A DNA stretch of 64,000 bases from Lachnospiraceae bacterium (GTDB taxonomy: Bacteria; Bacillota; Clostridia; Lachnospirales; Lachnospiraceae): contig JAGBEO010000028.1 in assembly GCA_017936885.1 (NCBI GenBank), forward strand, positions 1 through 64,000, in the 5' to 3' direction. The notes under the pieces were generated by a model. The model made no database searches, had not been told where the DNA came from, and saw only the letters and a program-made list of their open reading frames with translations. The position numbers and the translations under genes are program-made. Numbering within the stretch: position 1 is the stretch's first letter; the number at the start of each line of letters is the position of its first letter. Positions 25,203 to 51,641 of the stretch are shown here, in pieces.

Positions 25203-26300
25203 ATGAAAGAAGAGAAATCCTATTTACATAAAACATATCACAGAAATAAGACCGTGATTGTTTTTTTCTTATGCCTGGCAGCTTTTCTCGGATTGATTGC
25301 AAGACTCTCCTATCTGATGATTTTCCAGTCGGAATACTATACGCAGAAAGCCAAAGAACTGCATGAAAGGGAGCGGAGTATTAAGGCGGCAAGAGGGCGT
25401 ATTGTGGATGCTAACGGAAAGATACTGGCAGATAACAAGACGGTCTGCACGATTTCCGTAATTCATAATCAGATTACGGATGAGGAAGAGGTGATCTCCG
25501 TATTATGTAAGGAATTGGGGCTTTCCGATGAATATGTAAGGAAGAGAGTGGAGAAGTATTCTTCGATCGAGAAGATTAAGAGCAATGTGGATAAAAGTAT
25601 CGGGGATGCCATAAGAGTCTACGATCTGGACGGCGTGAAGGTGGATGAAGACTATAAACGGTATTATCCTTATGATTCTCTGGCATCTAAGGTGCTTGGT
25701 TTCACAGGCGGAGATAATCAGGGTATTATCGGATTGGAAGTAATCTATGAAGAGTATTTACAGGGAGAACCGGGAACGATTCTGACAGTGACCGATGCAA
25801 AGGGCGTGGAAGTAGCGGAAGCCGGAGAAGAGAGAGAAGAGCCGGTAAGCGGTCAGGATCTGTATATCAGTCTGGATATGAATATACAAAGCTATGCCAC
25901 CCAGCTTGCCTTACAGACTATGGAAACGAAGGAGGCAGAGAGTGTTTCCATCCTCGTGATGAATCCCCAGAACGGCGAGATTCTTGCGATGGTGAATGTA
26001 CCGGAATTTAACTTGAATGATCCCTATACGCTGCCGGAGGGGACTGACAGTGAGAGTATAAGTGAGGAAAAAAGGCAGGAACTGTTAAACGGTATGTGGC
26101 GTAACGGCTGTATCAATGATACTTACGAGCCGGGTTCTACTTTCAAGATCATCACCGCCGCTGCAGGGCTTGAGTCCGGCAGTGTAAAGACCACGGATAC
26201 TTTTAATTGTCCCGGATTTATCATGGTGGAGGATCGCAAAATACGATGCCATAAGGTAGGAGGACACGGAGCGGAAGACTTCGTGCAGGGTACGATGAAC
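25203..26300 (+). CDS. spoVD: SpoVD-like class B PBP, 5' part (codons 1-366), interrupted
   Basis: The N-terminal 366 codons of a second class B PBP in the place where Bacillus and Clostridium carry spoVD, the mother-cell transpeptidase for cortex synthesis. It has a basic head, one membrane segment near 17-39, the dimerisation domain, and the catalytic STFK (Ser312, Lys315). The gene is broken at TCCTGTAA (26301-26308). If read on, it runs 43 codons into the element, antisense to the histidine kinase, and stops at 26432. That product lacks the SxN and KTG motifs and cannot be an active transpeptidase. The rest lies at 50988-51641 in the matching frame. Whether it is truly SpoVD rather than another division PBP rests on position. 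Confidence 0.9.
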
Positions 26301-26308
26301 TCCTGTAA
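26301..26308 (+). other. attL core TCCTGTAA
   Basis: The left copy of the 8-bp core lies in frame as codons TCC TGT AAg. The bases on its left continue the PBP gene and those on its right belong to the element. The AA at 26307-26308 is the centre of the rebuilt attP palindrome, hence the probable crossover dinucleotide. Confidence 0.85.
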
Positions 26309-26309
26309 G

Positions 26310-26335
26310 CAGGAAGTTGTGAAACATAGAGTGTA
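26310..26335 (+). repeat. Left element arm of the attP inverted repeat
   Basis: CAGGAAGTTGTGAAACATAG and the six bases after it, read in reverse complement, match the other element end at 50970-50992 with a few mismatches and one single-base offset. In the closed circle these make an imperfect inverted repeat of about 50 bp centred on the AA dinucleotide, as expected of a large serine recombinase attP. Confidence 0.75.
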
Positions 26336-26341
26336 TCAAAG

Positions 26342-27655
26342 TCAGGCAGACAAGAAGACCGTGAATGTGCTTCCGCCGCCCGGTGTATCCGTAACCGTAA
26401 TATTGCCGCCGTGTGTTTTTACAATTTCATAAGCAATCGATAATCCCAACCCGAAGTGTCCCTTGGTGCTTCGGGATTTCTCTGCCCGGTAGAAACGGTC
26501 GAATACCTTTCTTTTATCCTCGTTGGAGATACCGATGCCGTTGTCCTGCACAGACAGGTAGAAGAAGTCCTTATCGTGAGCCTTTTTGTGAGAAAGGGAC
26601 AGGGTAATATGTCCATGCTCCGGCGTATAGCTGACGGCATTGTGGAGAAGAATAGAAAGAACCTGGCTGATGCGTTCCGGGTCTGCCGGACATAAAGGCA
26701 GCCCATCCTCCGGCAGACGGATGGAGAGCGTAATTGCCTTATCCCGTGCCAGGGGTTCAAAGGTTTCATAAGAATTCATGAGCAGCGTATCTAATTCGAT
26801 CGGTTTGACCTGAACGGAGAAACGCTGGTTGTCGGATTGGGACAAGGTCAGCATATCATTTACCAGAGCGGACACCCGAAGTCCTTCCTGACGGATTATT
26901 TTCAAGAAGCCCTCCTGCTTTTCGGCGGGGGCTGTTTTACAGCATTCTGCTGCGGATAAAATGACAGCAAGCGGTGTCCGCAGCTCGTGGGAAGCCGATG
27001 CCACAAACTGCACCTGTTTTTGCTGGTTTTCTATAATGGGTTTTAGAAGTCTTCCTGTGAAAATCCAGGAAAAAACAGTAAGGAGCAGAATGGCTGCGAT
27101 ATCGATCAGTATAAAACGCAGGCGCTGTTCCCTGATCTGGTGTTCCAGAGCTTTCATCGAGGAAAGGACGATAATTTCCAGTGAAGAAGAGGTTTTTCCC
27201 ATGCAGATGACGCTTGCAAAATATTTGGTATCCGTGGATAGGGAAGTAAATTCGTATTCAAAATGATAAGATACATAGGATGGACTTGTCTGTATGGAAG
27301 GGTCGATGGCAAACCTATTGTTATAGGTATCCAGACATTCTTCTAAAAGCAGCTTTTTGGAAGAAGTTTCGTCCGAATCATTCAGTTGGTTATACAGAAA
27401 AGGAACACCGTTATCCAGAACAAAAAAGAGATAATTGCCCTGTGCTTCCATCTTGGAAAGCCATTCCATGGAAATAACAGACTGCTGTTCTAAATTGGTG
27501 GTAATGGTATTCATGTCGTTTTTAAAGGATTGAAATTGGTTTCTGTAGAGCCCTTTTTCCGAAACATACAGGTAGCAAAGGGACATAATGATCATAATGA
27601 CGGTGGTGATTCCTGCACATAACAGGGTAAGCCGTATATGCACTTTTTTATACAT
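26342..27655 (-). CDS. Membrane sensor histidine kinase
   Basis: A 437-residue kinase: membrane segment near 8-30, an extracellular sensor of about 140 residues, a second membrane segment near 180-200, then HisKA with SHELRTPLAVILSA and HATPase with N, G1 (DNGIGIS), F and G2 (GLGLSIA) boxes. No HAMP is obvious. It follows its response regulator and is the leftmost gene of the element, its stop lying about 34 bases from the attL core. The signal is unknown. Confidence 0.9.
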   Translation of the reverse strand: MYKKVHIRLTLLCAGITTVIMIIMSLCYLYVSEKGLYRNQFQSFKNDMNTITTNLEQQSVISMEWLSKMEAQGNYLFFVLDNGVPFLYNQLNDSDETSSKKLLLEECLDTYNNRFAIDPSIQTSPSYVSYHFEYEFTSLSTDTKYFASVICMGKTSSSLEIIVLSSMKALEHQIREQRLRFILIDIAAILLLTVFSWIFTGRLLKPIIENQQKQVQFVASASHELRTPLAVILSAAECCKTAPAEKQEGFLKIIRQEGLRVSALVNDMLTLSQSDNQRFSVQVKPIELDTLLMNSYETFEPLARDKAITLSIRLPEDGLPLCPADPERISQVLSILLHNAVSYTPEHGHITLSLSHKKAHDKDFFYLSVQDNGIGISNEDKRKVFDRFYRAEKSRSTKGHFGLGLSIAYEIVKTHGGNITVTDTPGGGSTFTVFLSA

Positions 27656-27712: not shown

Positions 27713-28390
27713 TCAGTCTTTCTCCTGCAGGCAATAGCCAATGCCCCGAATTGTTTTAATCTGTAATCTGCTTCCTGTTATCTGCAGGCGTCTGCGCAGA
27801 AAGTGGATGTAGTTGTCCAGATTGCCTTCCTCTACATCGCTGTCCGGACCCCAGACTTTTAGAAGTAGTGTGTTTCTCTGTAAAGTCTGTCCCTTTGACC
27901 GTAAAAAAGTTTCAAGCAGGGCAGCTTCCCTTTTGGAGAGCGTGCATTTGCCTAAAGGACCTGTCAGAATGCTTTCCGATATCTGCCAGGAGACGTCGGC
28001 AACGGTCAGAATATCAGAATCAGTCAGGGTATGAGGTCTTCTCGTGACACAGCGGATTCTTGCAAGAAGCTCTTCAAAATCGAAGGGTTTTACGAGATAA
28101 TCGTCAGCACCCAGATCAAGGCCCGTTACCTTGTCGGATAATGTGCCCAGTGCCGTTATCAGTATGACAGGGGTAGAGATTCCTCTTTTCCTTAAGGAAG
28201 TCAGTACATCAGTGCCTTCCATATGAGGAAGCATTCTGTCTAACAGGATCATGTCATAAATATTCTGTTCCCCGTAAAATAGAGCTTCCTCGCCGTCTAA
28301 ACAAGAGTCTACACTAAAGCCTGCCCGTTCTAATTGATAGGTGAGAGTATTATTTAATTGTTTGTCGTCTTCTGCCAGTAAAATTCTCAT
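27713..28390 (-). CDS. OmpR-family response regulator
   Basis: A 225-residue regulator: receiver domain with acidic EDD near 7-9, phospho-acceptor Asp in LLDRMLP near 51, and the switch Lys in VKPFDF near 101, followed by a winged-helix DNA-binding domain (to RTIRGIGYCL). It is the first gene of a two-gene unit with the kinase at 26342, 57 bases apart. Its promoter must lie in 28391-28590, which is A+T rich. Confidence 0.92.
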   Translation of the reverse strand: MRILLAEDDKQLNNTLTYQLERAGFSVDSCLDGEEALFYGEQNIYDMILLDRMLPHMEGTDVLTSLRKRGISTPVILITALGTLSDKVTGLDLGADDYLVKPFDFEELLARIRCVTRRPHTLTDSDILTVADVSWQISESILTGPLGKCTLSKREAALLETFLRSKGQTLQRNTLLLKVWGPDSDVEEGNLDNYIHFLRRRLQITGSRLQIKTIRGIGYCLQEKD

Positions 28391-28590: not shown

Positions 28591-28701
28591 TTGAAAACGT
28601 GATAATTTATAGGTATATAGATGTTGAAAACGTGAATATTTATAGATAAATATGGCTTGAAAACGTGATGATTTAACATAACAAGAACGTTGAAAACGTG
28701 A
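28591..28701 (+). repeat. Four direct repeats TTGAAAACGTGA, exact 33-bp period
   Basis: Identical 12-bp copies start at 28591, 28624, 28657 and 28690, so each centre-to-centre distance is 33 bp, about three helical turns. The bases after the core are partly alike in the first three (T/A-ATTTA). The array sits between the divergent response regulator and the AAA ATPase gene, and the last copy touches the start region of the latter. It may be an operator for a multimeric regulator. The upstream 28441-28590 shows only A+T-rich sequence. Confidence 0.8.
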
Positions 28702-28736
28702 TTTGCGTTAATGGCATGAAAGGTATGGTGGCAGGC

Positions 28737-30080
28737 GTGAAGCTGAAAAGAAAAATATATCAGACTCTTTTACAATGGAAGCGGACAAGCAATGGGGAAA
28801 CCGCGTTATTATTAGAAGGTGCAAGACGGGTAGGAAAGAGCTATATTGCACAGGATTTTGGCAGTACTGAATATAAATCCTGCCTTATAATTGATTTTTC
28901 GAATGTGTCCAAGCAAATTATAGAAGTTTTTGAAAGTGATACAACAGATTTTGATTTGTTTTTTAATAAATTATCTGTATTTTATGGTGTGAAATTATAT
29001 CAGAGGGATTCTTTGATTATTTTTGATGAGGTACAGATGTATCCGAGAGCAAGGCAGTTAATCAAACATCTTGTGGCAGATGGAAGATATGATTATTTGG
29101 AAACGGGTTTGCTGATTACATTAAAGCAGAATGTAGAGAGTATTGTTATTCCGTCTGAGGAAGAAACAGTTACTATGTATCCTTTGGATTTTGAAGAATT
29201 TTTATGGGCAATGGGGGATGAAACCACGGTTCCCTATATGCAAAGCTGCTTTGAGAATAAGAAGCCTATGGGGGAAGCACTGCATAGAAAGACAATGAAT
29301 TTATTCAGACAGTACATGTTAGTTGGTGGTATGCCACAGGCAGTTGCGGTTTACGCAGAGACGAAAGATTTTGAAAAAACAGATATGGTAAAGCGGAGGA
29401 TTCTTACTCTTTATCGCAATGATGTGACTAAGTTTGCCAAAGGGTATGAAAGTAAGGTAATGTCTATTTTTGACGGTATTCCATCACAGCTTTCTAAGCA
29501 TGAGAAAAATTATAGATTAGCATCCATTCAGAAGCAGGCACGATACCGGGAATACGAAGATGCATTTATATGGCTTGATGAAGCAATGATTATCAATACA
29601 TGTTTCAATTCTACAGATCCTAATATTGGCTTGGGACTTCATGCAGAGAGGATGACGCTTAAATGTTATATGGCAGATACCGGACTTTTATTCAGTCATG
29701 CATTTTCTGATAAAGAAATTACAAAGGAGGAAGTTTATAAAGCGATTTTGTTTGATCGAATTGAGTTGAATGAAGGTATGTTTATTGAGAACATTGTTGC
29801 ACAAATGCTTAAAAGCAGCGGATATAAATTATATTTCTATTCCAGAAGCGATAGGGAAAATTCCGATAACAGAATGGAGATTGACTTTTTGATCAGTAGG
29901 AACAGAAAAATCAGCCCGGTTGAGGTTAAGTCGGCATCCTATGGCAGCCATGTATCTTTAGACAAGTTTAAAAAGAAATTTTCTTCTAAAGTGGGGACAA
30001 GATATATAGTTTATACGAAAGACTTAAGAGTGGAAAATGATATTGTCTTTCTGCCCCTCTATATGGTGATGTTTTTATAA
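28737..30080 (+). CDS. AAA-family ATPase with C-terminal DUF4143
   Basis: About 447 residues: Walker A GARRVGKS near 27-34, Walker B LIIFDEVQ near 92-99, and a C-terminal DUF4143 region with the nuclease-like core EIDFLISRNRKISPVEVKS near 395. Proteins of this class are common in gut Clostridia and archaea and of unsettled role. The start is uncertain: the family usually opens K-L-K-R-K, which the GTG at 28737 provides; ATGs at 28716 and 28725 and a GTG at 28698 are in frame. It stands alone between the 33-bp repeats and a strong terminator. Confidence 0.75.
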   Translation: MKLKRKIYQTLLQWKRTSNGETALLLEGARRVGKSYIAQDFGSTEYKSCLIIDFSNVSKQIIEVFESDTTDFDLFFNKLSVFYGVKLYQRDSLIIFDEVQMYPRARQLIKHLVADGRYDYLETGLLITLKQNVESIVIPSEEETVTMYPLDFEEFLWAMGDETTVPYMQSCFENKKPMGEALHRKTMNLFRQYMLVGGMPQAVAVYAETKDFEKTDMVKRRILTLYRNDVTKFAKGYESKVMSIFDGIPSQLSKHEKNYRLASIQKQARYREYEDAFIWLDEAMIINTCFNSTDPNIGLGLHAERMTLKCYMADTGLLFSHAFSDKEITKEEVYKAILFDRIELNEGMFIENIVAQMLKSSGYKLYFYSRSDRENSDNRMEIDFLISRNRKISPVEVKSASYGSHVSLDKFKKKFSSKVGTRYIVYTKDLRVENDIVFLPLYMVMFL

Positions 30081-30161: not shown

Positions 30162-30414
30162 AGATGAACCGATTGAAGTGCTCCTGACTCTTCATAAATG
30201 ATGCGTTGTAAAAGATATGTTCCGGTTTAGAGATAATTTAGAGATAAGTCTGATACGATTCATGTGTTAAGAGAATGAAGTTTCCCAGTCATTTTGGAGT
30301 AACAGTACGTTCTGTGAATATAAAATGGCTTTATGCAAATAGGACATTTTGCGGGGCGGAAATAAGATCATTGAAAATAAAAAGTTGGAAATAGGAAAGG
30401 GAGCAAAAGATAAG

Positions 30415-32964
30415 ATGAAAAAAGGATTTCAATTTCTAAGGCAGAAAAAGAGAACAAACAGAACATTGGCAACGCTGCTGACATTTTCCATGTTGACAGC
30501 GATGCTCGTCGGCTGCGGAGCACCTTCTGGGGAAGGGAACGGAATGAATACGCAGGAAGCTGGCGGTGTATCAGCAGAAGGGCAGGATACATCACAGGCA
30601 TTCGATAGTACGGCAATGGGACGATATGTGGAAGAAATCACAGATTTGTCAGACCGTATTTCCGGTTATGGTGATAGTCTTTACCGGCTGAATGACGGAA
30701 GCCTTGTGATTGCAGATAAATGGATGGGATTTCTAATTTCGAAGGATAATGGCGCTACATGGGAAGAAGATCCCAGAGACTGGCATACGGAAATGGTGGA
30801 AAATCAAACTTATATTATGAGTCTGGGAGTGGGGCCGGATAATACGGTGGGTGTGATCTACAATGATGATTCATATTCCGATACAGAGACAGAAAAGCAG
30901 GAAGAGAACACAGAAACAAAGGAAGAGAACACAGACTCACAGGAGGAAGCGGCAGAAGCAGATGACACTAAAGAAGCAGAAGACGAAATAAGTGATGATA
31001 AGGCAGAAGAAGAGGAAGCCGCAGAGAGTGAATATGAAGAACCCGAATTAAATCCCAAATGTCTGATTGTGAAAACGGACGGGACACAGATACCTGTAGA
31101 TATTCCGGTAACCGAAGAAGATTCTTATATATATAACGTTTATATATCAGATGACGGCAGAATTTTCGTAACGACTATGGGAAGCGGCAATATTTACGAA
31201 GTAAAAGAAGACGGGAGTAGTGAACTGTTCCTGACACTGGAGACAGATTCCCGCCCGGAGCTGATCCAGTTTCAGGATAATCTGATGATCATAGACGGAT
31301 ACGGCTGTAAGGGACCGCTATTTTATGATCTGGATCAGGAAGAATATATAGAGGATGAGGTGTTAGACCAGTTCGTAGACGAAAATTATAAAGACAGAAA
31401 CAGCGGAGGCAGTGATTCGTACAGTATGTATTTCTTCCCCGGAGAAGAGGATGTTCTCTATCTGGCAGGAGCAAAGGGGCTGTACCGTCATGTGATAGGA
31501 GGAAGCGTAATCGAACAGGTGATTGACGGAAGCCTTTGTACGTTTAACAATCCTGCCTACAGCATCTATGGAATGACTGTGCTTGATAATAACGAGTTTA
31601 TGGCTTTGTTCACGGGAAGTAAGCTGGTTCGTTTCGTCTATGATCCTGATATTCCCACTGTGCCGAATGAGAAACTGAAGGTTTACAGCTTGAAAGAAAA
31701 TGATACAATCCGGCAGGCAATTACCCTGTATCAGGCGGCTAATCCGGAAGTTTTTGTGGAATACGAGGTCGGTATGGGAGAAGACAGTTCCCTGACAAAG
31801 GATGATGCATTAAAAAGCCTGAATACGGAAATTATGGCGGGAGAGGGCCCGGATGTCCTGATTTTGGATGATATGCCCCTTGATTCTTATATTGAGAAAG
31901 GTCTGCTTCTTGATCTGAGTTCTGCCTTGAACAGTCTGGAGGGAGAAGAGGAATTATTTGCCAATATCGTAGATGCGATGAAAACAGATGATAAGGTATA
32001 TATGATGCCTTGTGAAATTCAGCTTCCGGTCATAGTGGCAGATCAGAAGTATATTTCTGCGGCAAAGAACTTAGAAGGCATCGCTGATGCGGTAGAAGAA
32101 CTGCGAAGTGATCATCCTGATAAGGATTTATTAGGATTGTGTACGGAAAGAAGTGTTATGCGGTTGTTTGCCATGACCTGTGTACCATCGTGGATAACGG
32201 AAAGCGGTGAAATCAATCGAGAAGCAATTACGGAATTCCTGACACAGACGAAGAGAATTTATGATGCACAGATGGACGGAATTCCCGATGCGAGTGTGGA
32301 TGATTTTAACGCAAGAAATGAATATTATTTGGAGGAAGACGGGCAAACATGGGAAGATTCGGATTATTTCAGAACTTCGGTAAATATCATTGACCTTATT
32401 GGCGGATTTTCCTATATGGAATGCGGGGCATTAAGTTATGCTTATGGTTATGCAAATGTGATTTCCGCAGATAAAGTGAAAAATTATGAAAACAGTGAAT
32501 GGATTCCAATGACCGGACAAAACAGCAACGTATTTTGTGCACAGACACTGCTTGGCATCAACGCTGCATCGAAGAATAGCGGGCGGGCGGAAGATTTCAT
32601 AAAGGTTTGCCTTGGCAAAGAAAATCAATCCAATCTGTTTAAAGGGTTTGCTGTAAATAAGGCAGCCTTTGCGCAAAGCTTCGTTGTAAAGGAAGAGGAT
32701 ATGAGTGAAGACGGTATTTATGGCACGCTGTGTATGGGCAATGATGACGGACTTTATATTGAATTACCTGTTTACTGGCCGACTGAGGAGCAGATTGAAG
32801 AACTGAGAAACTATTTGGAAACAGCGGATACGGTTTATATAAAGGATGACAGATTAGAAGAGGCTGTGTATGAAGAAGGTGTTTTCTATATGCAGGGGCA
32901 TCATAGTCTGGAAGAAGCAGTCAGTGCGATTGAGAAGAAGGTTTCTCTGTATATGGCCGAATAA
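30415..32964 (+). CDS. Lipoprotein: Asp-box/propeller-like domain fused to a sugar-binding domain
   Basis: An 849-residue secreted lipoprotein. The signal peptide ends in the lipobox MLVGC near residue 40. The N-terminal half has an Asp-box-like segment (SKDNGATWEED) and beta-rich repeats such as YLAGAKGLYRHV, split by a Glu/Asp/Ser/Thr-rich linker of some 50 residues. The C-terminal half (from about residue 430) resembles extracellular solute-binding proteins of sugar ABC importers. The two permease genes that follow make it the likely binding component. The ATG at 30415 is chosen because a signal peptide follows it. No catalytic residues are recognised in the propeller-like part. Confidence 0.75.
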   Translation: MKKGFQFLRQKKRTNRTLATLLTFSMLTAMLVGCGAPSGEGNGMNTQEAGGVSAEGQDTSQAFDSTAMGRYVEEITDLSDRISGYGDSLYRLNDGSLVIADKWMGFLISKDNGATWEEDPRDWHTEMVENQTYIMSLGVGPDNTVGVIYNDDSYSDTETEKQEENTETKEENTDSQEEAAEADDTKEAEDEISDDKAEEEEAAESEYEEPELNPKCLIVKTDGTQIPVDIPVTEEDSYIYNVYISDDGRIFVTTMGSGNIYEVKEDGSSELFLTLETDSRPELIQFQDNLMIIDGYGCKGPLFYDLDQEEYIEDEVLDQFVDENYKDRNSGGSDSYSMYFFPGEEDVLYLAGAKGLYRHVIGGSVIEQVIDGSLCTFNNPAYSIYGMTVLDNNEFMALFTGSKLVRFVYDPDIPTVPNEKLKVYSLKENDTIRQAITLYQAANPEVFVEYEVGMGEDSSLTKDDALKSLNTEIMAGEGPDVLILDDMPLDSYIEKGLLLDLSSALNSLEGEEELFANIVDAMKTDDKVYMMPCEIQLPVIVADQKYISAAKNLEGIADAVEELRSDHPDKDLLGLCTERSVMRLFAMTCVPSWITESGEINREAITEFLTQTKRIYDAQMDGIPDASVDDFNARNEYYLEEDGQTWEDSDYFRTSVNIIDLIGGFSYMECGALSYAYGYANVISADKVKNYENSEWIPMTGQNSNVFCAQTLLGINAASKNSGRAEDFIKVCLGKENQSNLFKGFAVNKAAFAQSFVVKEEDMSEDGIYGTLCMGNDDGLYIELPVYWPTEEQIEELRNYLETADTVYIKDDRLEEAVYEEGVFYMQGHHSLEEAVSAIEKKVSLYMAE

Positions 32965-32966
32965 AA

Positions 32967-33054
32967 GGGAATGAAGTTACACTAAGGCTGCAAAATACGC
33001 AGCCTAAGTGTAACTAAGTCATTCCCGGAAGAATGCCCTTAGGGGGCATTCTTC
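32967..33054 (+). repeat. Nested-hairpin repeat, copy 1
   Basis: Three bases after the lipoprotein stop, GGGAATGA (32967-32974) pairs with TCATTCCC (33019-33026). Inside is a 16-bp stem (32976-32991 with 32999-33014, one mismatch) with loop AAAATAC. A second perfect 11-bp hairpin follows (33028-33038 with 33044-33054). A copy with the same plan and loop but different, compensating stem bases occurs at 51634. Confidence 0.75.
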
Positions 33055-33124
33055 ACGTGGCGGATTGAGTAACTTGGTGACAGGACGGGTCGATAGGTGC
33101 GCGATGGGAAAATTTGGTGGCGTA

Positions 33125-43274: not shown

Positions 43275-43328
43275 GTGAATCATACCATGGCGGCAGAGGT
43301 GCTAACAGCGTCTGCCGTCTGGGTTCAC
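43275..43328 (+). promoter_or_regulatory. Intergenic hairpin between binding protein and permeases
   Basis: GTGAA (43275-43279) pairs with TTCAC (43324-43328), and CGGCAGA (43291-43297) with TCTGCCG (43311-43317). There is no T run. Such hairpins often protect the upstream message, giving more binding protein than permease. Confidence 0.5.
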
Positions 43329-43372
43329 GATAAACAGTAAGTAGGAAGAGATAAGAAAGGTTATGGTTTCAT

Positions 43373-44299
43373 ATGGGGAAAAAGAGTAAAAACAATATAA
43401 AGAAATATAACCAGGCGGGATATTTGTTTGTTTTCCCATTTCTTGTTGTATTTTTGGTTTTCAGTGTATATCCGGTTCTTAGAACCTTATATTTGAGTTT
43501 TACCAATGCCAAGATTGCCGGTGTGGGCAAGATGGACTGGGTTTGGTTTGAAAATTATGTCAGAGTGATTAAAGATAAATTTTTCTGGCGTTCTTTATGG
43601 AACACCATAAGAATCTGGGTTGTTAATATTGTATTGCAGCTTGGTCTTGCATTCTTATTGACGATCGTATTCAGCGATATTAAATACAAGATGAAAGGTC
43701 TTGGCATTTTCAGGGTCATTTATTATCTCCCGAATCTGATTGCAGCCACTTCCATCGCATTCTTATTCAAGACATTGTTGGACTGGCGCTATGGTACTTT
43801 CAATCAGATTATCAACAGTATATACCATTTCTTCGGAGCCAATTACAATCCGATCGACTGGCTTGGCACAGCAACTTATGCAGGGCCGACGATTGCAATC
43901 ATTCAGACTTGGGTCTGGTTTGGAAACTCTTTCATTATGCTGATGGCGGGTGTACAGGGTATCTCAACGGATTATTTTGAGGCGGCAGCGATTGACGGCG
44001 CCGGAAGATGGACAGTATTTGGGAAAATCACATTACCATTGTTAAAACCGATCTTATTATATGTTGCGATCACATCCCTGATCGGTGGTTTACAGATGTT
44101 CGATCTGCCATTCCTGATGGCTGATAAAGCAAGTGCGGCTTATCCATCCGTACAGACGGCGGTAATGTATCTATATAAATTCGGATTTGAAACAGGAACG
44201 ACACAGACAGGATATGCTTCAGCGATTGCATATATCATCTTTATCATTATTCTTTCTGTCTCTATTGTTCAGTTCAAAGTATTTAATAAGGAGGATTAA
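43373..44299 (+). CDS. Sugar ABC transporter permease, MalF/UgpA type
   Basis: A 308-residue permease with six membrane segments and the EAA loop YFEAAAIDGAGRWTVFGKI near 203. It lies between the binding-protein gene and a second permease gene with the same strand and tight spacing, so the three form one importer. It differs clearly from the permease at 33125, so this is a separate system. Confidence 0.92.
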   Translation: MGKKSKNNIKKYNQAGYLFVFPFLVVFLVFSVYPVLRTLYLSFTNAKIAGVGKMDWVWFENYVRVIKDKFFWRSLWNTIRIWVVNIVLQLGLAFLLTIVFSDIKYKMKGLGIFRVIYYLPNLIAATSIAFLFKTLLDWRYGTFNQIINSIYHFFGANYNPIDWLGTATYAGPTIAIIQTWVWFGNSFIMLMAGVQGISTDYFEAAAIDGAGRWTVFGKITLPLLKPILLYVAITSLIGGLQMFDLPFLMADKASAAYPSVQTAVMYLYKFGFETGTTQTGYASAIAYIIFIIILSVSIVQFKVFNKED

Positions 44300-44304
44300 G
44301 GAAT

Positions 44305-45138
44305 ATGGGTACAGGTTTCAAAATCAAAAAAGCTATTTTATACATTCTCTTAATCCTTTTGGGAGCGGTGTGTTTGCTTCCGTTCCTCTTAATGTTGGTC
44401 AATGCAACAAGAAGCGGTGTAGAGATTGTAAATTCATTCACACTGATTCCCAGCACACATTTAAAAGAAAACTGGGATACTGTATTTAAATTTTTCAATC
44501 TTTTCCAGGGTATGTGGAACAGTATCAAAGTAGCAGTTCCGGCGACGCTTTTGACAGCATATTTCTCAGCGTTGACCGCTTATGGTCTGGCTATGTATGA
44601 GTTTAAGGGAAACAAGTTCATTTTTACTATGATTCTGGTATTTATGATGATTCCCGGACAGCTTGGTTTGATCGGTTTCTATAACCTGTGTACCAGACTG
44701 CACCTGGTAAACTCTTACATACCGTTGATTATCCCGGCGATCGCAGCGCCCGGAACCGTATTTTTCTTAAGACAGTATGTATTATCCGTTCTGCCGCCGT
44801 CATTAGTGGAAGCGGCAAGAATCGACGGGGCAAGTGAATTATATTCTTTCCACAGAATTGTACTTCCGATTATGTCCCCGGGTATTGCAACTATGGCGAT
44901 CATGGCATTTATCGGGAACTGGAATAACTACCTGCTGCCAATGATCATATTAAATAAAAACGAGAAATTTACTCTGCCGGTTATGATGGCAACATTAAAA
45001 GCATCTACAGATATTCAGTCTAACCAAGGTGCGATTTATCTGGCAGTAGCAATTTCCGTTATACCGATCCTGCTGGTGTTCTGTTTCTGCTCTAAATATA
45101 TTATCAGCAGCATTTCAGCCGGCAGTGTGAAAGAGTAG
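44305..45138 (+). CDS. Sugar ABC transporter permease, MalG/UgpE type
   Basis: A 277-residue partner permease starting five bases after the previous stop, with AAGGAGGA inside the end of that gene. It has about six membrane segments and the EAA loop LVEAARIDGASELYSFHRI. No ATPase gene follows; a terminator does. As for the first importer, a shared ATPase must come from elsewhere. Confidence 0.92.
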   Translation: MGTGFKIKKAILYILLILLGAVCLLPFLLMLVNATRSGVEIVNSFTLIPSTHLKENWDTVFKFFNLFQGMWNSIKVAVPATLLTAYFSALTAYGLAMYEFKGNKFIFTMILVFMMIPGQLGLIGFYNLCTRLHLVNSYIPLIIPAIAAPGTVFFLRQYVLSVLPPSLVEAARIDGASELYSFHRIVLPIMSPGIATMAIMAFIGNWNNYLLPMIILNKNEKFTLPVMMATLKASTDIQSNQGAIYLAVAISVIPILLVFCFCSKYIISSISAGSVKE

Positions 45139-45172
45139 CTAATAACCTTCTTTTTATTTCTTTTCCCTTGGG

Positions 45173-45211
45173 CAGATATGCAGGGGTAGCACCTTGCATA
45201 TCTGTTTTCCC
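45173..45211 (+). terminator. Terminator after the second importer
   Basis: A stem of 10 bp or more, CAGATATGCA (45173-45182) with TGCATATCTG (45195-45204), and a T-rich tail, placed 35 bases after the permease stop. Confidence 0.7.
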
Positions 45212-45228
45212 TTTGTTATAGTTAAAAT

Positions 45229-46722
45229 ATGTATAGTATATTGATTGTTGATGATGAGAAAAATTGCAGACAGATTTTGAAAAACATAATCCGCAAATCA
45301 GGCGTTCCCGTGGATATGATCGTAGAGTGCCGCGATGGAGCAGAAGCGCTGGAGGTCTTGGGAAGTCAGGGGATTGATGTGATGTTTACTGACATCTGTA
45401 TGCCGGGGATAGATGGGATTACACTTGTAAAAGAAATGCAGAAATATCCGCATAAGCCCATCACGGTTGCTGTCAGTGGTCATGATGATTTCGCTTATGC
45501 CGTGGAAATGATGCGGATGGGTGTGCGGGATTATGTCTTAAAGCCCGTTGACAGAGAACAGTTGGAGAAGCTTATCTGGAAATTTGAGGAAGAAATTCAG
45601 CAAAATCACATGCAAAACAAGACCAGAAAGCATATCGGTTATCAGCAGTTAAAATACCTGATGCAGAATGATAATATTTCCGAGAAAGAAATTGATATTA
45701 TTATCAAACAGTATCAGAACAGTGTTTTCCCGGAGTCGGGATATTATATTTGCTGTCTGGAGAAAAAAGAATATCAAAGTGCCGAGAACAATCATTTTAT
45801 TTATCTAAATGATGTGTGGGGCAATGATCTGTTTGTGATTGACAGCAGGGCATTGACACTGTTTTCCAAGAATGAATTACAGAGTGCTTATTTAGGATTT
45901 AGTGAAATACATTTTGGGTTGTCCGGTTTAAAACAGGCATATGAAGAGGCATTTCTTGCCAGAAGACAGGCATACCGTAAGATGGTGCACCGGGTATTTT
46001 ATAAGAAGAAAGAAGCTGTCTCATTTCTGGATGAGAAAGGAATAGAAATTCTCGTTTCTTCTCAGCCGATGGAAGGGGAACAGATGAAAAAGATTGCACA
46101 ACTGATCGGTACTGATAAGGGTACGGAAATTCGTCTGTTTATGAAAAATATGAAAAGGGATGTTTATAAGGGAAGCTGTTCGCTGGAGAGTTTTGAAAGC
46201 GGAATTACGACTCTGATACAAGATATCATGCATACTTATCAAAATCTTCTGAAAGAAGAGGATATGGATTTTAGCAGATTTCATAATATCTATCAGTATC
46301 CCTGTCTGGATGATTTTATGGAAGAGCTGACGGAATGGATTCTGGTGTTACAGGAGAAAATCCATACGCAATTCGATGATTATAAGAATAAACAGAAGAT
46401 TACGCAGGCAGTACGTTACATTGAAACCAATTATAACAAAGATCTGAATATGGCAGTCGTATCGAATTACGTCTCCATGAATTATTCTTTGTTTTCTTAT
46501 GAATTTAAGCAGTACACCGGGACGAACTTCGTATCCTATGTGAAAAAGCTGCGTATTGAGGAAGCCAAGAAGTTATTGACAGATACGGATTTGAGAATCA
46601 ATGAAATCAGCACAAAAGTAGGATATGACAATGAGAAGCACTTCATGAAAACCTTCAAAAGCGTCTGCGGTGTTTCTCCCAGTGAATATCGAAAAAATAC
46701 ACATTTTACAGCAGAAGCCTAA
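45229..46722 (+). CDS. Response regulator with AraC-type DNA-binding domain (YesN-like)
   Basis: A 497-residue regulator: N-terminal receiver with Asp in FTDICMPG near 55 and Lys in VLKPVDR near 104, a long middle region, and a C-terminal AraC helix-turn-helix pair (about 395-490, ending VSPSEYRKN). Regulators of this type usually answer to a YesM-like kinase and control sugar importers such as the one just upstream; no such kinase is encoded here. The ATG has no purine-rich ribosome site, and a TTAAAAT lies right before it. Confidence 0.88.
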   Translation: MYSILIVDDEKNCRQILKNIIRKSGVPVDMIVECRDGAEALEVLGSQGIDVMFTDICMPGIDGITLVKEMQKYPHKPITVAVSGHDDFAYAVEMMRMGVRDYVLKPVDREQLEKLIWKFEEEIQQNHMQNKTRKHIGYQQLKYLMQNDNISEKEIDIIIKQYQNSVFPESGYYICCLEKKEYQSAENNHFIYLNDVWGNDLFVIDSRALTLFSKNELQSAYLGFSEIHFGLSGLKQAYEEAFLARRQAYRKMVHRVFYKKKEAVSFLDEKGIEILVSSQPMEGEQMKKIAQLIGTDKGTEIRLFMKNMKRDVYKGSCSLESFESGITTLIQDIMHTYQNLLKEEDMDFSRFHNIYQYPCLDDFMEELTEWILVLQEKIHTQFDDYKNKQKITQAVRYIETNYNKDLNMAVVSNYVSMNYSLFSYEFKQYTGTNFVSYVKKLRIEEAKKLLTDTDLRINEISTKVGYDNEKHFMKTFKSVCGVSPSEYRKNTHFTAEA

Positions 46723-46750
46723 CAGAGATAGTTAGGCTTTTCTTTTTTTG
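46716..46750 (+). terminator. Terminator shared by two converging genes
   Basis: AGCCTAAC (46716-46723) pairs with GTTAGGCT (46731-46738), followed by a T run. The stem contains the stop codons of both the AraC regulator and the GGDEF gene. Confidence 0.8.
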
Positions 46751-48621
46751 TGAAGATACATTTCCTGATCGGCTTTTTTGAACAGTTCATGTAAATCGAG
46801 AGAAGGATTGATCTGCGCTAAAATAAAGCCGCTGCTGACAGAGAGCTGATATTTTTTGGTATGCAGCTTGTTGTAGTTTTCCAGATAGCGGTTGACCTGA
46901 TAAAGAAGTGCACGAGCCTCTTCTTCGGTATAATTTACGGCAAGCAGATAGAATTCGTCGCTGCCCAGGCGTGCGCAGATATCAGTTTCCCTGATAGCGC
47001 CTTCTAAGGCCTGACCAAGAATCTGAATGGCAAAATCACCTTCACTGTGTCCGTAAGTGTCATTGATTTCTTTCAGACCGTCTAAATCAAATGCAAAAGC
47101 AGCTATGGGCGTATTTGCATTCTTGTTTTTTTCCAGTAATTCTTCTGACAGCATGTTATATCCATGCCGGTTATATAATCCGGTCAGTTCATCTTTCATA
47201 TAGATTTCTTCCAGTCTGCTGACCAGCAGTCCGGTTCGTTTGTTTTCTGAAATATTGCGCAGCATACTGCTGACATTCATCAGCCAGGAGAAGAAATCCA
47301 GTTGATAGGACATCTGTGATCCCTGATATGCCATTGCCACATAACCGAATTCTTTTTCCCCAAAATAGAGAGGAGAAAAGATATAAGCAGAAGCATCCGT
47401 ATCAAACAGATAGTCCGGCAGTGTACTCTGTTTTGTAAAACTGCATTCATGCCGTCTTTTGCCGTTCTTGTATGCGAATTTGAGCAGCATGGTATCGGTA
47501 TCCGCATTATCCTCCTCTGAGGCAGTGATCGTGCGGATATGAGTAGAAACCGAATCCCAGTCAGGATATAGACAGAGATAAAGCTCTGCGCAGCAGCCGA
47601 TATGCGGGATAAACTGTTCCAGTAAATCCATACCTTTATTTAAGTCAACAACATTCTGCAAAGAAGAAGACATATGGATGTTATCCATGATGGCATTTTC
47701 CATCTGGGAAACCCTCTGGTTGACAGAATGCTGGAAATAAAAAGGATTTTTGGCATAGGTGCTGCGACAGCCGCAGGAACCGCCGATATGGGGAGCCGCT
47801 TTGATGACGGATATTTCCTCAGGCTGCTCTCCGCGGATCGCTATAAGAAGCTGCTCCACAGCCTTTATTCCTAATTCTTTAATCGGGAAAGTAACGGAAG
47901 TCAGGGAAGGATTCAGCGCCTGGCCTTCCTCCAGCATATCTGTTCCGGTGATCGCAATATCTTCGGGAACCTGATAGCCTCTGTTTAATAATTCCAGAAG
48001 CAGCGTTAATGCCATGCGGTCATTGTAGCAGACGATGGCATCCGGCTTTCCGGTACTTAAGAAATGGGTCAGAGCGGCGGCGATATCCGTTTCTTCGTAA
48101 GAACATTCGTAAAGATCCGTATCTGCAACAGGCAGATTATGAAGTGCCATAACCTGTGTGTAAGCCGCTTTTCTTTTTTGAGAGAAAAGAGGTTCCAATA
48201 TATTGCCGAGATAGCATATTCTTCTATAGTGATGGGTGCCGATCAGATGCTCTGTGATCTGTCCGGTGGCGCTGTCATTGTCCAGGGCAACAGAAGGCGC
48301 AAAAGTGTGATTCTGGTTGATGTCGACAATAGGACATGTACATTTGGACTGCAGGGTTTGGGCAATCCGCTCCCGCAGATCATCGGACAGATAAGTGCCC
48401 GATACGAAGATCACACCTGAGAAATCGTCAAAATTGGGAATCCTGAGAATGCTTCTCTCACCAATGCCGTAATCTCCGATGTTTTCACCGTCTGTTGAAG
48501 AAAAGACTTCTACAAAATAACCGAATTCGGCAGCTTTATCAATGATTCCCTGACAAATATTGCACTGGAATTCTCCGGAAATATGAGAAATGAAAACACC
48601 GATTTTTTTGGAATGGTACAT
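46732..48621 (-). CDS. LacI-type sugar-binding-like sensor fused to a GGDEF domain
   Basis: About 629 residues. The N-terminal 270 residues look like the periplasmic-binding-type effector domain of LacI regulators (KKIGVFISHISGEFQ, DNDSATGQITEHLIG, ITGTDMLEEGQALNPSLTSV) but without any helix-turn-helix. A middle region of some 190 residues follows, then a diguanylate cyclase domain whose signature reads GSDEF, a tolerated variant of GGDEF, near residue 567. It should make cyclic-di-GMP in response to a sugar-like ligand in the cytoplasm. No signal peptide or membrane segment is seen. The ATG at 48621 has GGAGGGAGGA upstream. Confidence 0.85.
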   Translation of the reverse strand: MYHSKKIGVFISHISGEFQCNICQGIIDKAAEFGYFVEVFSSTDGENIGDYGIGERSILRIPNFDDFSGVIFVSGTYLSDDLRERIAQTLQSKCTCPIVDINQNHTFAPSVALDNDSATGQITEHLIGTHHYRRICYLGNILEPLFSQKRKAAYTQVMALHNLPVADTDLYECSYEETDIAAALTHFLSTGKPDAIVCYNDRMALTLLLELLNRGYQVPEDIAITGTDMLEEGQALNPSLTSVTFPIKELGIKAVEQLLIAIRGEQPEEISVIKAAPHIGGSCGCRSTYAKNPFYFQHSVNQRVSQMENAIMDNIHMSSSLQNVVDLNKGMDLLEQFIPHIGCCAELYLCLYPDWDSVSTHIRTITASEEDNADTDTMLLKFAYKNGKRRHECSFTKQSTLPDYLFDTDASAYIFSPLYFGEKEFGYVAMAYQGSQMSYQLDFFSWLMNVSSMLRNISENKRTGLLVSRLEEIYMKDELTGLYNRHGYNMLSEELLEKNKNANTPIAAFAFDLDGLKEINDTYGHSEGDFAIQILGQALEGAIRETDICARLGSDEFYLLAVNYTEEEARALLYQVNRYLENYNKLHTKKYQLSVSSGFILAQINPSLDLHELFKKADQEMYLHKKRKA

Positions 48622-48807
48622 GAGAAGTCCTCCCTCCGCGTTTGTAATTTCAATCATATTGTAATAGAAGCAAAAGGGAAATGCAAGTGGGGCCAGAAAG
48701 GTTGGAAGCTATATGTCTGTTCATTGGCAGGTGTTATAAAAGAGAGTAATATTGGCGGTTTGGAAAGAATAAAATGGAGCAAGAATTGTACATGCAGGAA
48801 GATGACA

Positions 48808-48942
48808 ATGAAAGAGGCGGATACGGATGCTGCAAAAAGGCAATTGCTGCTTAATATTTCCGAAATTCTGGAACAAAAGGGGCTGATCAGTGCTGAAGAG
48901 AGAAAACGTATGAGGGATATTATTAACAGGCAGATAAAGTAA
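48808..48942 (+). CDS. 44-residue protein before the recombinase, candidate excision factor
   Basis: A very small charged helical protein: after MKEADTDAAKR comes LLLNISEILEQKGLISAEER and a basic tail ending INRQIK. An AGGAAG site lies eight bases before the ATG at 48808 (an ATG at 48802 is too close). It ends 65 bases before the recombinase gene on the same strand, so the two are probably cotranscribed. Small basic proteins encoded beside large serine recombinases are often their directionality factors; that role here is inference only. Confidence 0.55.
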   Translation: MKEADTDAAKRQLLLNISEILEQKGLISAEERKRMRDIINRQIK

Positions 48943-49007: not shown

Positions 49008-50888
49008 ATGGCAGCAAAACAGCAATCATGCACGCCGATACCACGTGTCGGCATCTATAACCGATGCTCTACGGAGGAAGAAGCGCAGAAGAATGCGCTG
49101 GCGATTCAGGCGGAGGAAAGCAGGGAGATTGCCGCGACCAAAAAGAAATGGATCATAGCTGCACAGTATATCGAAAGCGAGTCCGGCACATCCGTCAAGA
49201 ACCGTACAGAATATCAGAGACTTCTGGAAGATATGGAAAAGGATATTTTCGATATCGTAATGATCAAATCCATAGACAGGCTTATGAGATCGGCAAAAGA
49301 CTGGTATCTGTTTCTTAATAAACTTACAGAGAACAATAAAAAATTGTATATTTATATCGATGACAAGTTTTATACGCCTGATGACAGCCTGATATCCGGC
49401 ATCAAAGCGATTCTTGCCGAGGAGTTCAGCCGGGAATTGTCCAAGAAGATTAAAAATTCCCACGGGCGCAGACAGGAGATGCACAGACAAAAGAAGCCTG
49501 CAGGATTAAATATCACAAGGCCGATGTTTGGATGGGATAAAATCGGAAAAGATGTATATCAGATTAATGAAGCCGAGGCGGAAGTATACAGGGCGGCTTT
49601 TGACATGGCCGGATCGGGCAAGGGCTTTTACACTATTGCAAATTATATGTATGATCAGGGAGTAAGAGGAAAGAACGGCAGCAGAATATCCAATGTGCAG
49701 TGGAGGAAGATGATCTATTCTCCCAGGGCACATGGGACAATGGTGATTCATACAAGAGAATATGATTTCGATACAAAGAAGTTTATGAAGCTTCCGCCGG
49801 AAGAATGGATTTATATTGAAAACGCATTGCCTGCCATTGTATCGGAAGAATATCAGGCAGAGGTGCTTTCGTCTATTGCCGACCGGAAAACAGACTCTAA
49901 ATTTGAAACGTACACAAGGGATATGTCCAAGGCAGGAAGGTATGATTTGTCCGGTAAACTGATTTGCTCCGAATGCGGCGCTGTTTATTACAGAACGTCT
50001 TTTCTGTCAGGGGACAGAAGGCTTGCCGAATGGAAATGTTCCACAGCGCTTAAGAACGGAAGAAAAGGCACCAATAAAGTGGGCTGCGATAACATTAATC
50101 TGATGGAAGAAGAAATTCTGAAGCTGATTGAGACAGCCTGCAGGAAACAGTATGAAAGCCTTTTCGGAGCGCAACAGAATATTATAGATGAGGCGCTTGC
50201 TGCTGTTAAAAAGGCAATCCGGGATGATACGGCAGAAAGAGAACTAATGAAGTATAGAAAAGAATATAATAAACTGGAACGAAAGAAGAGGGTTTTATTT
50301 GATAAACTCATGAATGAAACAATCAATGATCAGGAATTTATGCAGTATAATGCGGAACTGGACAGCCGGATGAAAGTTTTTTCCGATAAAATAAGTTTAC
50401 TGCAAAAAAATACGATAGAATCCGATTATGAAGAAAGACTGGCTGTTATGAAAGAGGTTTTGAACAAAGGCGAGGTAGTTAGTCAGGCAAAAATAAAAGA
50501 ACTTGTGACGAAGATTGATAGGATTCTTGTATATCCTGATCACAAAATTGAAATAATCTTTCATAGAACAAAACTTTTGGGACTGCTGAAACTATATGAC
50601 AGCAATATTGAAGACCGTCCGGAGGATGTACCCTGCCGAATTGTTACTGAGTATGTACATACAAATAGATCTTCGGAGAGGAGAAAGCAAATCAATCGAC
50701 AAATATTAAATATTTTTCGGGACAATCCATGTACGCGTGCCAAAGATCTGCCGGAAATGCTGGGGGTTGGATATTCTTATGTCAATACTTCAATAAAGGA
50801 ACTGAAAAAAGCCGGGAAACTGCGGTATGAAAAAAACGGAACCGCCCATGCAGGCATCTGGTATGTACAGGACAGTAATAAAGCTTGA
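49008..50888 (+). CDS. Large serine recombinase of the intervening element
   Basis: A 626-residue site-specific recombinase. The N-terminal resolvase-type catalytic domain has Ser21 in YNRCSTEEE, the Arg of IDRLMRS near 90, and the long helix of this class. The recombinase domain follows (RPMFGWDKIGK near 170), then a zinc ribbon (LICSECGAVYY with later Cys at about 345 and 363), a coiled coil (about 400-490) that controls direction, and a C-terminal winged-helix-like part. Length and order match integrases such as those of skin elements and Clostridium phages. GGGGAG precedes the ATG. It reads towards attR, whose core lies 100 bases after its stop. Confidence 0.93.
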   Translation: MAAKQQSCTPIPRVGIYNRCSTEEEAQKNALAIQAEESREIAATKKKWIIAAQYIESESGTSVKNRTEYQRLLEDMEKDIFDIVMIKSIDRLMRSAKDWYLFLNKLTENNKKLYIYIDDKFYTPDDSLISGIKAILAEEFSRELSKKIKNSHGRRQEMHRQKKPAGLNITRPMFGWDKIGKDVYQINEAEAEVYRAAFDMAGSGKGFYTIANYMYDQGVRGKNGSRISNVQWRKMIYSPRAHGTMVIHTREYDFDTKKFMKLPPEEWIYIENALPAIVSEEYQAEVLSSIADRKTDSKFETYTRDMSKAGRYDLSGKLICSECGAVYYRTSFLSGDRRLAEWKCSTALKNGRKGTNKVGCDNINLMEEEILKLIETACRKQYESLFGAQQNIIDEALAAVKKAIRDDTAERELMKYRKEYNKLERKKRVLFDKLMNETINDQEFMQYNAELDSRMKVFSDKISLLQKNTIESDYEERLAVMKEVLNKGEVVSQAKIKELVTKIDRILVYPDHKIEIIFHRTKLLGLLKLYDSNIEDRPEDVPCRIVTEYVHTNRSSERRKQINRQILNIFRDNPCTRAKDLPEMLGVGYSYVNTSIKELKKAGKLRYEKNGTAHAGIWYVQDSNKA

Positions 50889-50969
50889 AAATAGCAGTAT
50901 TGCTGAAATGATGAGACGTATGGAAAACAGTAAAATGGGAGACAACAGTAAAATCATGAAATTAGAATA

Positions 50970-50992
50970 TACTCTCTGTTTAGAAATTCCTG
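50970..50992 (+). repeat. Right element arm of the attP inverted repeat
   Basis: TACTCTCTGTTTAGAAATTC followed by CTG, matching the reverse complement of 26310-26335. In the excised circle the two arms flank the dinucleotide AA, giving the perfect core palindrome TTCCTGTAAGCAGGAA. Confidence 0.75.
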
Positions 50993-50995
50993 TAA
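50988..50995 (+). other. attR core TCCTGTAA
   Basis: The right copy of the 8-bp core. The bases after it (TCCGGTTTTT) continue the PBP gene in the same frame as the left half, with codons TCC TGT AAT rebuilding Ser-Cys-Asn. Confidence 0.85.
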
Positions 50996-51641
50996 TCCGG
51001 TTTTTATCACTGTGGGGCTTCGTATCGGTGTGGAGCGGTTTTATTCCTATTTCAGACAGTTTGGACTGCTTGATAAGACAGGGATTGATTTGCCGGGCGA
51101 GGCGGGAACCATTATGCACAAGGAGGAAAATATCGGGCCTGTGGAGCTGGCTACCATATCCTTCGGGCAATCCTTTCAGATTACACCAATTCAACTGGCG
51201 ACGACAGCTTCTTCCATTATCAATGGTGGGAGACGGGTGACGCCCCATTTCGGTGTAAAGGTGGCGGACAGTGACGGCTTAAACAGTCAGGTCTTTGAGT
51301 ATCCGGTAAGGGAGAATGTGGTTTCCGCAGAGACCTCTGAGACGATGCGCTATATTCTGGAACAGGTGGTAGCGGAAGGAAGTGGTAAGAACGGTGCCAT
51401 AGAGGGATACCGGATCGGCGGCAAGACTGCCACCAGCCAGACACTGCCTCGCGGAAGCGGTAAATATATCGCTTCATTTCTCGGTTTTGCCCCGGCGGAT
51501 GATCCGCAGGTACTTGCCATTGCCATTATCAATCATCCCCAGGGAACATACTATGGCGGACAGATTGCTGCACCCGTTGTGCGACAGCTTTTTGAGAATA
51601 TTCTTCCATATTTGGAGAAGATGGATTATAATAGGACATAA
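50988..51641 (+). CDS. spoVD: SpoVD-like class B PBP, 3' part (codons 367-583), interrupted
   Basis: The last 217 codons of the interrupted PBP. From the core the frame reads SCNPVFITVGLRIGVERF and on through ENIGPVELATISFGQSFQIT to the C-terminus. SCN is the second active-site motif. The third motif reads KTA (residues 512-514 of the joined protein) where the family has KTG. There are no PASTA domains. Alone this part has no start with a ribosome site (the GTG at 51012 lacks one) and no nucleophile Ser, so it is silent unless the element leaves. mraY follows after a repeat-rich gap. Confidence 0.9.
   Translation, partial: SCNPVFITVGLRIGVERFYSYFRQFGLLDKTGIDLPGEAGTIMHKEENIGPVELATISFGQSFQITPIQLATTASSIINGGRRVTPHFGVKVADSDGLNSQVFEYPVRENVVSAETSETMRYILEQVVAEGSGKNGAIEGYRIGGKTATSQTLPRGSGKYIASFLGFAPADDPQVLAIAIINHPQGTYYGGQIAAPVVRQLFENILPYLEKMDYNRT

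Follow-up and report, generated by a model that had tools for sequence, protein, structure and literature searches.

The locus considered here raises the question of how the gene for a sporulation-type penicillin-binding protein (PBP) can be cut within its own catalytic motif, and whether such a break is permanent or reversible. In the window, i.e., the whole 64,000-nucleotide stretch of Lachnospiraceae DNA analyzed, mraZ, rsmH, and an ftsL-like gene are followed by an intact FtsI-type class B PBP (22863..25133, + strand; PF00905/PF03717). The interrupted gene is its downstream neighbor, which encodes the second class B PBP in this division and cell-wall cluster. Its 5′ part (25203..26306, +) covers codons 1-368, through the Ser-Cys of the Ser-Cys-Asn (S-C-N) motif, with a reading frame that continues into the insert as far as 26432, and its 3′ part (50994..51641, +) runs from the Asn of that motif to the stop codon, after which the cluster resumes with mraY, murD, and ftsW/spoVE-type genes (51842..55410, +). 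The insert itself measures 24,687 bp (26307-50993). We propose, with a probability of roughly four in five, that it is a skin-type sporulation gene-intervening element in spoVD, whose class B PBP serves cortex synthesis, and that it would be excised in the sporulating mother cell.

Taken in order, the two parts cover adjoining stretches of the PBP transpeptidase domain. Against the Pfam profile PF00905, the N part (25203-26300) aligns with positions 2-104 and the C part (50988-51641) with positions 102-299, and against the spoVD profile TIGR02214, queried with 25203-26432 and 51012-51641, they cover positions 3-347 and 352-558, respectively. An earlier sequence-only reading of the window had assigned both halves to a single class B PBP broken at the S-C-N motif; the adjoining stretches in both profiles bear this out, its coordinates and frame for the halves proved correct on recheck, and the comparison with relatives that it suggested turned up intact genes of about 590 codons. 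Its designation of the gene as sporulation-type also holds: the gene is spoVD-like, and its presence follows that of spoIVA in the order, with both present in 137 of 196 genomes, neither in 42, and only one in 17. Thus, the interrupted coding region is that of a sporulation gene, as judged by its co-occurrence with spoIVA. A non-sporulation role for it, or the production of its halves as separate polypeptides that assemble, is improbable in the extreme. The C half does contain an internal GTG (51012), as separate polypeptides might lead one to expect, but the 3′ part starts within the active-site motif; and a non-sporulation role is at odds with the genomes without this PBP: of the 12 such genomes that the order sample contains for the same family, 11 have no spoIVA match and one a weak match below the cut-off.

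The sequence-only reading had placed the junction at TCCTGTAA, an 8-bp repeat that is indeed present at both element ends in the window, but the crossover is better read as the 2-bp AA. In other species, the two ends have less sequence in common than the window's 8 bp, and an 8-bp crossover is ruled out by the genomes G010 and G012, whose ends do not share it. In the 25 loci that show both ends, attL and attR agree throughout in just one pair of adjacent bases, AA (the single bases -2 and +3 likewise agree). As the only such invariant pair, it is the most likely crossover point, which would lie within the Asn codon of S-C-N, at 26307..26308 in attL and 50994..50995 in attR. On paper, recombination between these short end repeats brings MNSCNPVF back in frame at 25/25 loci.

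Adjoining attR is the gene for a large serine recombinase of 626 amino acids (49008..50888, +), recognized by PF00239, PF07508, PF13408, and a recombinase alignment; it ends 99 bp before 50988, close to the 100 bp first estimated. Ahead of it lies a 46-aa small protein (48802..48942, +), a candidate directionality factor with relatives in the same position in 10/10 genus elements; the window's version has no Pfam match, and one relative shows a weak, sub-threshold match to DUF6870. The motif YNRCST is found in 31/31 recombinases. Two Roseburia records have a recombinase that is cut short, and two recombinases have a stop within the aligned stretch, at residue 7-8, ahead of the conserved start region, which, as read from the alignment, is not a break. 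Close carriers of this recombinase in phage or plasmid collections are ruled out, the top-ranked phage record being only 37.8% and the top-ranked plasmid record only 33.1% identical, and a viral scan likewise found no relative.

Within the genus, the gene is split at the same codon in 10/77 genomes, and a recombinase at least 64% identical occurs in precisely those 10. A scan of named genomes with the recombinase alignment as the query (a single-protein query gave no match) recovered 33 related loci, most of them titled Lachnospiraceae and nine repeating genus genomes; 27 of these records are titled as MAGs and six bear strain or isolate names. The recombinase precedes the spoVD 3′ half in 32 of the 33. 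Because 33 distinct loci from separate assemblies show this split, it is neither a chance occurrence nor an assembly artifact, and, to judge from these loci, the elements are a family across Lachnospiraceae, beyond the single case of the sequence-only reading.

Both halves of spoVD are under strong purifying selection while split, with dN/dS of 0.022-0.065 (10 pairs) for the N half and 0.000-0.073 (16 pairs) for the C half, similar to the 0.018-0.055 (7 pairs) and 0.011-0.063 (8 pairs) of intact genes. This similarity rules out decay of the halves, and their independent decay, which the sequence-only reading had named as contrary to its proposal, was not seen; the stop at residue 212-213 in six of 53 C parts is the natural end. 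The 10 split genus genomes each have a single spoVD match at E ≤ 1e-60, and thus no intact spare spoVD was seen in them at this threshold. With spoIVA present in nine of these 10 (the exception, G020, has spoIIIAA) and the recombinase itself under selection (dN/dS 0.07-0.18 in 13 of 16 pairs), a dead insertion that left spoVD permanently broken in hosts no longer sporulating is very improbable, even though the sporulation genes compared were limited to sigma factors, spoIVA, and, for part of the genus, spoIIIAA. In 74 of the 77 genus genomes, the sigK profile matches best to an open frame about 220 aa long, which falls below the family cut-off; no split sigK was seen, which is weak evidence since 0/77 genomes have a match over that cut-off.

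Another alternative, which we consider unlikely, is an ordinary integrative element with spoVD as its target, which, free of developmental control, is excised from any cell at a low rate, the selection on spoVD being maintained by element-free or excised sporulating cells. Conjugation-type genes do occur in two elements (ParA in both, a relaxase and a topoisomerase in that of G034, and a coupling protein in that of G010), the recombinase has moved between hosts in the case of G095/G096, and G034 is the lone split species amid intact ones in the tree. On account of this transfer and these conjugation-type genes, some family members may act as ordinary mobile DNA. However, if excised cells alone sporulated, every spore passage would purge the element, whereas the elements co-diverge with their hosts (recombinase and spoVD distances correlate with r = 0.81 over 25 taxa; 0/5000 permutations). 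Further, the elements of the window and of G073 have persisted past a divergence of dS >1, with 13 of the 15 cargo genes common to both at 60-95% identity, and the ORFs listed for four genus elements of just 3.5-3.8 kb, in a family that ranges from 3.5 to 24.7 kb, show no transfer genes.

Among the 17 ORFs of the window's element scanned with Pfam, there are no phage structural genes and no relaxase or transfer genes. The cargo comprises a sensor histidine kinase (26342..27655, -; PF00512, PF02518), 76% identical in the G073 element, and a response regulator (27713..28390, -; PF00072, PF00486); an AAA_14/DUF4143 ATPase (28698..30080, +), without a counterpart in the G073 element; a first ABC operon (30349..36406, +; PF13416, PF00528) with a solute-binding protein, two permeases, and a protein whose sole match (biotin/lipoyl) is sub-threshold; a GH30 glycoside hydrolase (36539..37879, +; PF02055, PF17189); two methyl-accepting chemotaxis proteins (37936-39408, +, and 39518-41683, -; PF00015); a second ABC operon with an AraC-type response regulator (41829..46722, +; PF13416, PF00528, PF00072, PF12833); and a sugar-binding-like sensor with a GGDEF domain (46732..48657, -; PF13377, PF00990).

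Reports on known skin elements place the B. subtilis recombinase (PMC517825) and the C. difficile directionality gene (PMC5025042) under sigma-E and SpoIIID. Sigma-E-like motifs precede both spoVD and the recombinase operon in the window, as putative promoters at 25146..25172 (+; ATA-N16-AATAAATT, a relaxed motif) and 48749..48775 (+; ATA-N16-AATAAAAT, in a block conserved in the genus). The relaxed motif occurs before spoVD in 46/47 evaluable upstream regions (shuffles, mean 0.34) and before the recombinase in 20/31 elements (shuffles, mean 0.56), being absent upstream of the other 11/31. It was found before spoIIIAA in 26/26 and spoIVA in 13/26 of the positive controls (for each gene, 26 of the 30 loci could be used), and in 0/31 and 0/53 of the coding controls; these counts come from related, non-independent sequences and a motif picked after viewing the recombinase upstream regions. 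The promoter claim depends on this relaxed form because the strict CATA form occurs in only 3/31 recombinase upstream regions and is absent from the window.

From these sequence features, we infer developmental excision, its timing, and the small protein's role; those points of the developmental switch proposed in the sequence-only reading that sequence can test were borne out. While cells grow, the element would sit within the Asn codon of S-C-N, in the active site, keeping spoVD off. Recombination of attL with attR at AA would release a circle that is lost together with the mother cell, in which the intact spoVD could then be read. With both halves so well preserved, the bacterium probably does reassemble the gene. 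The forespore would retain the element, which would therefore be inherited.

More broadly, we find it reasonably likely that a dedicated recombinase lineage derived from conjugative elements put cortex synthesis in many gut Lachnospiraceae under programmed mother-cell deletion at the catalytic codon of spoVD, and that the elements were later reduced to 3.5 kb or acquired operons for sugar uptake, which the mother cell would discard. Separately, in the same genus, a recombinase of another clade seems to split pdaB, and for this reason several spore-wall assembly genes may be under deletion control there. The gut commensals of this family are thought to pass between hosts as spores. The active site of a cortex-machinery enzyme would be a new target for gene rearrangement, across a large family of these commensals, and a single recombinase lineage shows tiny elements and conjugation-gene-bearing ones together. 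The named split strains, among them Parablautia intestinalis D8-82 and Lachnospiraceae bacterium 10-1 and 1xD42-87, offer a chance to test programmed deletion beyond the usual models, and genome annotation may label spoVD as broken, and the strain as asporogenous, in such genomes.

The literature consulted gives sigK, spsM, spoVFB, gerE, and yabG as rearranged sporulation genes, from Bacillus, Clostridium, and Clostridioides, with a sigK prophage listed for Alicyclobacillus too; spoVD was not found described there as a gene that such an element occupies naturally. The skin elements of Bacillus subtilis and Clostridioides difficile share with the present family a serine recombinase, a split sporulation gene, and in-frame restoration, but their host gene is that of a sigma factor, sigK, and skin is prophage-like, whereas the window's element has no phage genes among its 17 scanned ORFs. 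SPbeta in spsM, vfbin in spoVFB, and yin in yabG, the last reported from a single strain, are likewise recombinase-bearing elements that split sporulation genes, but they are phage or phage-like and occupy host genes other than spoVD (PMC10747680). ICEBs1 does reside within spoVD in laboratory B. subtilis, but this is described as a secondary site in lab strains from which excision is undetectable (PMC3715440). In Bacillus cereus ATCC10987, gerE contains the gin element, which resembles the spoVD elements in its non-phage origin and its sporulation host gene; however, it is reported as a 28.6-kb element with three recombinases (PMC5595907), whereas the spoVD elements have one recombinase, span 3.5-24.7 kb, and extend over several genera.

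The second class B PBP gene of the window's cell-wall cluster (gene order mraZ, rsmH, ftsL-like, FtsI-type PBP, split PBP, mraY, murD, ftsW/spoVE-type) is interrupted by an element of 24,687 bp. The PBP-frame ORF starting at 25203 reaches the element junction and continues to 26432, and 50988-51641 carries on the same frame. The N and C parts match consecutive stretches of the Pfam transpeptidase domain PF00905 (positions 2-104 and 102-299) and of the SpoVD model TIGR02214 (3-347 and 352-558), the TIGR02214 scores lying below the model cut-off, as expected for half proteins; this model also matches the intact FtsI-type neighbour, below cut-off. The split of spoVD is real, and these matches and the continued frame bear out the sequence-only reading of two halves of one PBP in one frame. 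The PBP KTG motif is KTA in 51 of 53 SpoVD C parts (51012-51641 and its relatives), split and intact alike, the pattern being unmatched in two; the FtsI-type neighbour keeps KTG.

The same split recurs in relatives. Ten of 77 genomes sampled from the genus (the window's own, G073, G034, G010, G020, G096, G095, G012, G005 and G019) encode a recombinase at least 64% identical, and in all ten the N half stops at the same codon and the C half opens a short frame just after the recombinase (in G034 the two element ends lie on different contigs). A single spoVD match at E <= 1e-60 turned up per split genome, and therefore no spare copy was seen in them. An uninterrupted gene in relatives, proposed earlier as a check, is indeed present: the halves are directly joined in 66 of the other 67 genomes (G036 has a frameshift elsewhere and G084 is joined at one of two places); among the 77, spoVD was not found in G026.

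Named genomes scanned with the alignment of the ten recombinases yielded 33 loci. Their titles give Lachnospiraceae or one of its genera, or nothing closer than Clostridia, Clostridium sp., Bacillota or bacterium; in all but one (L107) the recombinase precedes a spoVD C half starting at residue 1 to 3. Nine repeat genus genomes, so that with the window there are 33 distinct split loci. Metagenome assemblies make up 27 of the 33 records, and the strain- or isolate-titled ones are Parablautia intestinalis D8-82, Parablautia muri D42-62 and Lachnospiraceae bacterium 10-1, 1XD21-87, IMSAGC_005 and 1xD42-87. At L106 and L108, both from Roseburia MAGs, a recombinase of ~293 aa, its C-terminal half missing, leads directly into the 3' part of spoVD. 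As judged from its distribution, the recombinase lineage is tied to the spoVD site, because among 23 matches to its profile at E <= 1e-90 in a family sample of 397 genomes, the four with at least 51% identity precede a spoVD C half (G523 having the same match as Parablautia intestinalis, and G331 having the C half 1.2 kb from the recombinase), whereas the 19 with 31-38% identity do not.

The genus also carries more distant recombinases. Those of L060-L068 (group-3; e.g., G015:C68, G021:C54 and G085:C46) form another clade, 31-34% identical. In nine of nine loci, of which G063 and G064 are partial matches, they immediately precede the 3' part of a gene for a pdaB-like polysaccharide deacetylase; some have phage-like neighbours on reading. 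TIGR02764 is the best match, below cut-off, for two of these 3' parts. The pdaB-like gene is probably a second interrupted sporulation gene; a literature search on excision of a prophage from pdaB in sporulation brought up no paper. The recombinases of L057, L058 and L059 (G023, G091 and G032), 37-43% identical, share one interval away from spoVD, flanked by activase-like and AMP-ligase-like genes, names that come from reading translations only.

The 8-bp junction noticed from the sequence alone is present at both ends in the window (TCCTGTAA), but across 25 loci AA is the only adjacent pair always common to attL and attR, the element ends; single bases at -2 and +3 also agree. Serine-recombinase sites with a 2-bp crossover are expected to be palindromic around it, and the inferred circle junction of the G019 element, TTCCTGC-AA-GCAGGAA, is roughly so around AA. 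In every one of the 25 loci with both ends in view (two Roseburia records excluded), a crossover at AA produces an in-frame MNSCNPVFIT, and intact genes read TMNSCNPVF in 23 of 23 examined.

The window's element has a large serine recombinase of 626 aa at its right end and cargo comprising two ABC operons of sugar type together with two-component, chemotaxis, GH30 and GGDEF genes, with no phage structural genes among the 17 ORFs scanned. Cargo varies by lineage. G073 has counterparts of 13 of the 15 window cargo genes at 60-95% identity; the AAA_14/DUF4143 gene at 28698-30080 lacks one in that otherwise similar element, reflecting either a later insertion or a loss. Four Parablautia-type elements of ~5 kb share three genes (in Parablautia intestinalis an ABC ATPase, a permease and a substrate-binding protein), and two proteins with signal-like N-termini, on reading, occur in four genus elements of 3.5-3.8 kb and in G012 and G096. 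ParA is encoded in the G010 and G034 elements, with a type IV coupling protein in the former and a relaxase and topoisomerase in the latter; such content suggests that the elements may derive from conjugative ancestors turned resident. A small protein is encoded before the recombinase in ten of ten genus elements.

Independent decay of the halves, which would have counted against a functional split, is not what codon comparison of hand-picked pairs (16 split-split, nine intact) points to, as dN/dS is low in both halves of split genes: 0.022-0.065 for the N half (10 pairs with values) and 0.000-0.073 for the C half (16), against 0.018-0.055 (seven) and 0.011-0.063 (eight) in intact pairs, the others being saturated. 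Between the window's genome and G073, both split and with recombinases 75% identical, dS is 1.2-1.5 and the ratios 0.03. Such conservation would not be expected of a C half that never rejoins its N half. Recombinase dN/dS is 0.07-0.18 in 13 of 16 pairs (two saturated, one value implausible). Stops as breaks were considered and rejected, with 6/53 at the C part's natural end and 2/31 before the recombinase start.

Recombinase and spoVD distances are correlated over 25 taxa (Mantel r = 0.807, 0/5000 permutations). Movement is also seen: the recombinases of G095 and G096 are less diverged from each other than their hosts are, and in the tree G034 stands as the only split genome amid intact neighbours. 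Were the element lost at random, with only cells without it making spores, spores would be element-free and the element would vanish; instead, it has persisted with its hosts. For this reason we favour excision in the mother cell, the timing of which we infer, as in a skin-type element.

As a link to sporulation, the presence of spoIVA and of the second PBP was compared over 196 genomes of the order: spoIVA occurs in 147 (142 above cut-off), the PBP in 144 at E <= 1e-65, with both in 137, spoIVA only in 10, PBP only in seven and neither in 42. In the window's own family within this sample, 10 genomes have both genes and 12 lack the PBP; spoIVA is unmatched in 11 of these, and G159, with a match at E = 5e-4, is counted under spoIVA only in the tally. 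Within the genus, spoIVA is found in 71 of 77 genomes and in nine of the ten split ones. It is taken as a sigma-E gene. So is spoIIIAA, which is listed as one in PMC517825. Motifs of the ATA-N15/16-CATA type lie upstream of both genes in the genus (26 of 30 loci usable per gene). A relaxed form, ATA-N15/16-[CA]ATANANT, set after viewing the recombinase regions and then used unchanged on other genes, stands before the recombinase in 20 of 31 elements (mean in shuffles 0.56; 0/31 on the reverse strand), and the strict CATA form in three of 31 (mean in shuffles 0.17). The relaxed motif precedes 46 of 47 spoVD genes (leaving out one locus whose contig begins inside the gene), 26/26 spoIIIAA and 13/26 spoIVA, with coding controls at 0/31 and 0/53; these counts are not independent trials because the sequences are related. 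In the window, this sigma-E-like motif lies at 25146-25172 for spoVD and 48749-48775 for the recombinase. GGACA stands between the promoter boxes upstream of the L092, L093, L099 and L109 recombinases, and likewise in most aligned spoIIIAA promoters, which we take to resemble a SpoIIID site.

In the open-licence literature covered (PMC5595907, PMC10747680 and PMC3715440 among it), the host genes named for such elements are sigK, spsM, spoVFB, gerE and yabG; spoVD is not named there, except for a laboratory insertion of ICEBs1 with undetectable excision (PMC3715440). In B. subtilis, spoIVCA and the 5' sigK part are described as activated by SpoIIID (PMC517825). In C. difficile, the recombinase is described as vegetative, and CD1234, dependent on sigma-E and SpoIIID, as confining excision to the mother cell (PMC5025042). 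In the present elements, the small protein, 46 aa long in the window, is a candidate directionality factor; it appears to be transcribed from the same promoter as the recombinase.
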